Assembly (NCBI GenBank): GCA_011388275.1
Contig: DSAB01000074.1
Span: forward strand, 1-40,053
Source: a bacterium
Lineage (GTDB): Bacteria; Zhuqueibacterota; QNDG01; DSAB01
Direction of reading: 5' to 3'
DNA length: 40,053 nucleotides
The notes under the pieces are model-generated. The model searched no databases and had not been told where the DNA came from. It was given only the letters and a program-made list of their open reading frames with translations. Both the position numbers and the translations under genes were made by a program. Shown piece by piece: positions 1,883-35,713 of this stretch (its first letter is position 1; every line of letters starts with the position of its first letter).

Positions 1883-2512
1883 TCAATGACTGTTACGATG
1901 GCTGAAATCCTTTTTTATTGAATGACCGTGTTTCAGGGTCCATTTCATGGGATTGTTCCGGATATATTTCCGGATTCGTTTTAACAAATCATCATTCCAT
2001 ATGATTTGATCGTAATAATTGCGTTGCCATACGCGGGAACCTGGTGTGCCGCGTATTTGATTGATTTTGCGCGTTGTGACGGATAAATAATTTTGCATGA
2101 CCGACGATAATGAACCGGGTTTGGTACCGCGTGGTCGTATGGGACGATTACATTGCAGGGGCGAAGCATTCCGATGGCAAATCGACTGGTTGTTTAAAAT
2201 CTCTTCCCCGGAATGCTTCGCCCCTACCGGTCCATCAACACGTTCAACAATATGCAATATCCCATGAATATGATCGGGCATGACGACAAACGCATCCAAT
2301 CGAACGGTTGGAAAATGATTGGGAATTTTTTTCCATTGATTGGAAACCACATTGCCAAATTCATTCAACACCATTTTCCCATTGATAATTTCACCGAACA
2401 AATGTTCCCGGTTTTGTGTGCAAACCGTCACAAAATAAAATCCCGGACGACGGTAATCCCACCCCTTCAACCGAATGGACCGGCGATGATGCCTCGACGG
2501 ATCGTATACCAT
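1883..2512 (-). CDS. REP-associated tyrosine transposase (RAYT)
   Basis: This is a Y1 (HUH) transposase of the TnpA_REP/IS200-like class, which acts on palindromic REP-type hairpins by single-strand cleavage. Numbering from the ATG at 2512, the N-terminus has the family pattern RLKGWDYRRPGFYFVT. The HUH motif is MPDHIHG with His81 and His83, and the likely nucleophile is Tyr166 or Tyr167 in RNYYDQII, followed by the typical RKYIRNNPMKW tail. I chose ATG 2512 because a strong purine-rich site (GGGGAGGGGAGGGGT) abuts it; a GTG at 2536 is in frame and would place that site inside the gene. Residues 96-119 are encoded by a perfect inverted repeat that looks like an inserted REP. The protein is about 209 residues and looks intact. 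Confidence 0.9.
   Translation of the reverse strand: MVYDPSRHHRRSIRLKGWDYRRPGFYFVTVCTQNREHLFGEIINGKMVLNEFGNVVSNQWKKIPNHFPTVRLDAFVVMPDHIHGILHIVERVDGPVGAKHSGEEILNNQSICHRNASPLQCNRPIRPRGTKPGSLSSVMQNYLSVTTRKINQIRGTPGSRVWQRNYYDQIIWNDDLLKRIRKYIRNNPMKWTLKHGHSIKKDFSHRNSH
2157..2225. repeat. REP-like inverted repeat inside the RAYT gene
   Basis: The 17-base arms 2157-2173 (aggggcgaagcattccg) and 2209-2225 are exact reverse complements separated by 35 bases. The whole unit is 69 bases, exactly 23 codons, so it keeps the transposase frame open. It falls in a loop between the HUH motif and the Tyr motif, a region of variable length in this family. GC-rich palindromes of this kind are the normal substrates of RAYTs. 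No second copy of the arm was noticed elsewhere in the window. Confidence 0.7.
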
Positions 2513-35465: not shown

Positions 35466-35673
35466 AACCGGTCACTCAATCTGATTTGTGTACGGGGGGG
35501 ATTTATCGCCAGCAGCCAACTGACGCACCCCCCCTCAACTCTCATCAACAGCGCCAGGGAATCCACATTGTTGTCCCATGACACTTTTTGTACTACAAAA
35601 ACTGTACCGAAAAAAAACGGCCGCTTTTTATGCCTGATTGGTGTCTTTGCCGCCCGTTCTTCGCACTTGAAAT

Positions 35674-35713
35674 CCTCTAATTTTCGAGGATGCCTCAAAA
35701 ATTAGAGGGTTTT
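35674..35713 (+). terminator. Hairpin with T-run and a competing fold, before birA
   Basis: Arms cctctaatttt (35674-35684) and aaaattagagg (35698-35708) form an 11-bp stem with a 13-base loop, followed by TTTT at 35710-35713. Inside, GAGG at 35686-35689 can pair either with CCTC at 35674-35677 or with CCTC at 35693-35696, so alternative folds exist. It ends 58 bases before birA and could act as an attenuator. No regulator or ligand is evident. Confidence 0.45.

Follow-up and report, generated by a model that had tools for sequence, protein, structure and literature searches.

The RAYT gene and its internal palindrome

The window, by which we mean the whole 40,053-nt stretch of DNA analysed here, carries on its reverse strand a gene for a RAYT, a TnpAREP-like Y1 transposase, with a long palindromic element inside its coding sequence. 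RAYTs are regarded as domesticated transposases, and we know of no established benefit that they provide. The features of the locus are:

1883–2512, reverse strand: RAYT / TnpAREP-like Y1 transposase gene, 209 residues from ATG 2512, open from GTG 2536
1949–1966, reverse strand: YIRNNP motif with catalytic Tyr183, of the YIxNNP signature; Y183, N187 and P188 invariant in 73 aligned sequences
2264–2272, reverse strand: HUH motif, H81-I-H83 (209-residue numbering); both histidines invariant in 73 aligned sequences
2155–2227, reverse strand: footed palindromic element, 73 nt, GTAG...CTGC in gene sense; elements of nearly constant length with these ends occur in seven other genomes
2209–2225, reverse strand: 5' arm (gene sense), AGGGGCGAAGCATTCCG; the preceding GT completes the GTAG foot
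2157–2173, reverse strand: 3' arm (gene sense), CGGAATGCTTCGCCCCT, from the inverted-repeat search
2174–2208, no strand: spacer, 35 nt (39 nt if measured from one conserved 14-mer end to the other); length conserved, sequence unlike most family members

The better fit of the 209-residue protein to its homologues suggests that it, and not a protein begun at GTG 2536, is the likelier product. It matches the Pfam family Y1_Tnp (E 4e-5), and its nearest NCBIfam match is REP_Tyr_transpos, below the family cut-off (E 4e-17). A sequence search against solved structures gave no match; only a fold search with the predicted model did, showing resemblance to 4er8, the structure of a RAYT in complex with a REP hairpin (E 8e-7), and to IS200/IS605 transposases. 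The protein has the HUH motif and catalytic tyrosine in a Y1 transposase fold by which RAYT / TnpAREP proteins are classed, and, since the HUH histidines and Y183, N187 and P188 are invariant, it looks like an intact enzyme. Its W162-Q163 and YIRNNP agree with two of the motifs given for TnpAY1 subclass 2.4 in Table 1 of Quentin et al. 2018 (WQ, YIxNNP and NH[IFV]H, a MEME consensus and no strict rule; PMC6006769), a subclass corresponding to group 4 of Bertels (PMC6006769). The HuH region reads DHIH, which departs from the third, and we call the protein subclass-2.4-like.

Two further RAYT fragments occur in the same genome (G000), on contigs C61 (L101, about 512–740) and C140 (L102). The homology of the C61 fragment stops shortly before another palindrome, GGGGCGGGTT-tga-AACCCGCCCC. 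Elsewhere in the window, a separate inverted repeat of 20 nt (90% complementary, 3-nt loop) lies at 35670–35712.

Geometry, folding and position of the element

The two 17-nt arms (2157–2173 and 2209–2225) are 100% complementary and enclose 35 nt, exactly as placed in the preliminary description of this DNA. From base composition, 0.00018 such repeats are expected per window and 0.017 per 2.82-Mb genome. The GTAG foot is intact in the gene-sense strand (2227–2224), where the foot and the beginning of the 17-bp stem overlap; its counterpart on the opposite strand is GCAG (2155–2158), one mismatch from GTAG. Compared with dinucleotide shuffles, both the palindrome region as RNA (−46.4 kcal/mol, z = −5.5) and the 73-nt unit as DNA (−22 kcal/mol, z = −6.3) fold stably, with weak inner pairing in the 35-nt loop. 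DNA folding of each arm by itself predicted no structure, so the arms are not REPs in the strict sense. A search for the exact arm across the genome (2.82 Mb, a 155-contig draft) returned this hairpin only, the next-best match being one half-site with one mismatch.

The 69-nt unit had been described as exactly 23 codons, which holds for its length; its first base, however, is the third base of a codon. Read in gene sense from the foot, the codons GTA GGG GCG AAG CAT TCC give V-G-A-K-H-S. In an AlphaFold2 model with a mean pLDDT of 85, the element corresponds to residues 96–119, between the strand that carries HUH (81–88) and a helix (135–154). The ten-residue blocks from 91 to 120 average 52–58, and the low-confidence linker around the element extends over about residues 89–134. 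The model thus places the element in what is predicted to be a flexible linker outside the catalytic core. The window RAYT shares this arrangement with subclass 2.4, in which a variable insertion, often an in-frame REP, lies between β3 and αC (PMC6006769). Reading frame, homologues and modelled position agree that the palindrome sits in frame in the variable HUH-Tyr linker and leaves the RAYT open, as originally proposed.

Linker palindromes in RAYT homologues

We gathered 150 RAYT loci from 59 related genomes and a public genome set, with many phyla represented, and counted the 120 in which both motif regions are readable in one frame. Of the 120 homologues, 70 have a perfect inverted repeat within the HUH-Tyr linker (minimum arm length 10 nt), compared with 6 of 120 for a control segment just upstream (at most 210 bp) and about 2% of codon-shuffled linkers; the counts take no account of relatedness, although related loci are not independent of one another. 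When the minimum arm length was raised to 12 nt, the numbers were 57 for the linkers and 0 for the control. The arms mostly begin GTAGGGGC or GTAGAGAC and then diverge. In the 47 cases with a clear foot, GTA occupies codon phase 0 in 40 and phase 1 in 7, and the phase that would read TAG as a stop in none.

Linkers that bear a palindrome are longer than those that do not (p = 7e-4), a difference that is gone once the palindrome is subtracted (p = 0.52). The palindrome explains the extra length of these linkers, and this is the pattern expected of an insertion, bearing out the insertion that the earlier reading implied. On a tree of the conserved RAYT core, presence and absence are not clustered (35 changes against a shuffled mean of 38.3, with 79 of 500 shuffles as low), a result that is coarse owing to the weak support of the tree and that points to fast gain and loss.

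Among the RAYTs of the tree set, none was found that exceeds some 60% identity to the window protein in the core. Closer pairs elsewhere are few and mostly have an identical palindrome and not a compensated stem. In L115 and L144 the internal palindromes agree at 28 of 28 positions and the gene cores at 79%, and in another pair at 28 of 29 and 84%. Conservation above that of the core in a few pairs is compatible with a function, but also with flanking copies that repeatedly re-inserted or acted as donors for conversion.

Some loci deserve separate mention. L115, L118 and L144, from Bacteroidota and Spirochaetia records with cores 68–85% identical, have the palindrome GTAGGGGCGAAAAATTTTTCGCCCCTAC in common nearly letter for letter. 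Four RAYTs (L087, L050, L058, L185) have very long loops of 137–171 residues, consisting largely of short repeated peptides (VGAGLVPA, VGAYCDDVGNH) that possibly derive from repeated pieces of palindromes.

Matches between internal and flanking copies

In the 57 genes whose arms reach 12 nt or more, we searched for the loop-proximal 12-mer within 300 bp of the same gene. An exact match lies in the flanks of the gene itself in 14 of 57 cases, compared with 0.4% in the flanks of other loci; allowing at most one mismatch, the figures were 23 of 57 and 2.1%, and none of 5000 permutations reached this value. In L059, L070, L036 and L054, for example, the same palindrome occurs both inside and outside the RAYT gene. 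No flanking copy was found for the palindrome of the window gene.

The HUH-Tyr linker is a recurrent insertion site, whose insert is read in frame, often matches local copies and turns over fast. Two observations had been named at the outset as speaking jointly against a REP-like unit. One, an arm that occurs nowhere else in the genome, is what we found; the other, homologues that keep similar residues here without any DNA palindrome, is contradicted by the homologues with DNA palindromes at this position.

A long-spacer element family in related genomes

We searched 82 genomes of the phylum for the short ends of the element with a free spacer of 30–60 nt, allowing a total of 52–82 nt, and detected it in eight. 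G015 has 23 copies, G039 and G045 have 13 each (those of G045 mostly in tandem), G058 has three, and the genome of the window (G000), G042, G043 and G079 have one each. The listed copies from the eight genomes all measure 61–64 nt under the search pattern, and their spacer sequences vary between genomes. Copies in G015 and G039 are dispersed over many separate places, and copies in G039 and G045 flank RAYT genes. The relatives thus hold a dispersed element family of mobile type. Viral contigs contained no exact copy.

The spacer in G000 is weakly similar to spacers of G015, G079 and one of G045 (shuffle p 0.005–0.02, uncorrected over 66 comparisons), and since the similarity is weak and uncorrected we make no claim of a recent common origin.

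In G000, G042 and G043, the sole copy detected by the exact-end search, which could miss decayed copies, lies within a RAYT gene. The internal element of G043 (contig C109; L072, 740–872) is tandemly duplicated, with 15 of 15 positions paired in the first copy and 6 of 15 in the second. In G042 (contig C348; L073, about 672–749 in gene sense) the RAYT gene has a frameshift directly 5' to the internal element, which is itself perfect. G039 has a partly decayed internal copy and two elements on each side of the gene. Tandem arrays with a period of about 107–109 bp occur in G045 (C467:26126–26839 and C401:15–291).

Origin of the internal element

We consider it likely that the palindrome derives from a REPIN-like mobile element associated with RAYTs, a copy of which was inserted into a dispensable linker of a group-4/subclass-2.4-like RAYT and has been kept as an in-frame, flexible site. 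The data as a whole are best explained by an insertion, selfish or neutral, into a linker that tolerates it. Under this explanation, the element would have entered the part of the RAYT gene that links the HUH strand to the following helix. When replication exposes single-stranded DNA, the RAYT would bind GTAG-footed hairpins in it, cut at a nearby dinucleotide and rejoin the ends; with local cutting and rejoining, copies would pile up near existing ones, around and inside the RAYT gene. Insertions out of frame or with TAG in frame would be removed by selection, and the internal copy would persist because it is read in frame (V-G-A-K-H-S...) in a flexible part of the protein. In the genome of the window, flanking and dispersed copies would have been lost or never established, with the internal copy staying behind. 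That the RAYT itself places the copies is something we infer from the TnpAREP proteins of E. coli and Stenotrophomonas, which act on GTAG-footed hairpins and cleave at CT (PMC8266576). As the genome holds no second copy of the arm, mobility of the window element by its own RAYT is not seen.

An alternative that we regard as unlikely is that the palindrome inside the gene has been retained as a cis-regulatory site: by binding to the hairpin, in its mRNA or in the single-stranded gene, the RAYT would limit its own production or copying. The great stability of the hairpin as RNA would suit such a site, as would the few pairs in which the palindrome is better conserved than the core and the three genomes whose only detected copy lies inside the RAYT gene. 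Internal and flanking palindromes also match within a locus far beyond expectation, yet this is equally expected if local copies insert. Moreover, 50 of the 120 homologues do without such a palindrome and its presence is unclustered on the tree, the internal element has partly decayed in G039 and in one of the two copies in G043, and in G042 the gene is frame-shifted beside it. Patchy presence and decayed or frame-broken copies count against a fixed regulatory role, and the domestication or self-regulation suggested in the preliminary description would be an unlikely reading of the palindrome. It likewise seems improbable that group-4 RAYTs keep their own substrate in frame as a self-limiting device, the hairpin being recognised in the gene or transcript so that its activity is held in check and the gene survives the loss of all other copies; were this so, the window, G042 and G043 would represent the end state.

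We also give little probability to an origin of the element by recombination or replication template switching (gene conversion, slippage) from neighbouring copies in place of RAYT-catalysed transposition. The internal tandem duplication in G043 and the arrays in G045 show that slippage acts on these elements, and exchange with flanking copies would give the same picture as RAYT catalysis; the many scattered copies in G015 and G039, however, require a mechanism of dispersal.

Conservation of the encoded peptide, with the palindrome arising only through the choice of codons, is very improbable. There is a strong bias of the frame towards V-G-A (40 of 47), but the linker residues vary between homologues, palindromes that differ in DNA sequence turn up repeatedly at this one position, and such repeats are rare in codon-shuffled loops; the occurrence of the same palindromes in DNA flanking RAYT genes largely refutes this reading. 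A chance palindrome or an assembly artefact, conceivable in a 155-contig draft, has practically no probability left, given an expected number of 0.0002 per window, and is refuted by the elements of seven other genomes, whose ends and length agree with those found here.

Returning to the insertion of a mobile element, an in-gene palindrome that matches the surrounding copies in many relatives ties element and enzyme into one unit, and offers a natural system for asking whether a RAYT acts on its own gene.

Comparison with known systems

Quentin et al. 2018 (PMC6006769) have described in-frame insertions of REPs in TnpAY1 subclass 2.4, located between HuH and Y, so the central observation of the preliminary description is a known phenomenon. 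The window element has the GTAG foot in common with these insertions, and among relatives many of the genes have matching copies in their flanks. It differs in the DHIH of its host protein, in the lack of flanking copies in its own genome and in its loop. REPs have GTAG or GTGG 0–2 nt 5' of a 7–20-bp stem, and a loop of 2–5 nt or an upper stem joined via a 1–3 nt bulge (PMC6006769); the stem and foot of the window element follow these rules, whereas its 35-nt loop does not. Compared with the "double foot" type (PMC6006769), the second foot is mutated, with CTGC instead of C[TC]AC. Repetition in the host genome, also expected of REPs, is absent from G000 and present in G015, G039 and G045. Of the REP/BIME unit proposed earlier, the association stands, as the same element is dispersed, flanking and inside RAYTs in relatives; its single arms, however, lack a REP fold.

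The part of Di Nocera et al. 2013 drawn on here (PMC3733652) describes GTAG-tagged intragenic REPs that are read through in ORFs, and REPtrons, RAYT genes flanked by REPs. The window element resembles the former in being a GTAG-tagged palindrome read through within an ORF; the hosts of the intragenic REPs in that part are other genes, whereas here the host is the RAYT itself.

REPINs combine conserved ends with a spacer of constrained length (Bertels and Rainey 2011, PMC3116915). Like them, the window element has two conserved inverted ends at a near-constant distance, a spacer of variable sequence and a whole unit that forms one long hairpin, and its relatives show tandem clusters and RAYT neighbourhood. 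In contrast to REPINs (PMC3116915), which have a REP within each end, its ends are 14–17 nt arms without a REP-hairpin fold of their own; the end starts are 53 apart, compared with 71 in the GI type, and the element lies inside the RAYT coding sequence as a single copy in the genome. It is therefore a REPIN-like hairpin with a large loop, a less typical form than the short-loop REP. The published pattern of in-frame REPs is thereby extended to a long-hairpin, REPIN-like element, with its frequency, frame bias, insertion and turnover quantified.
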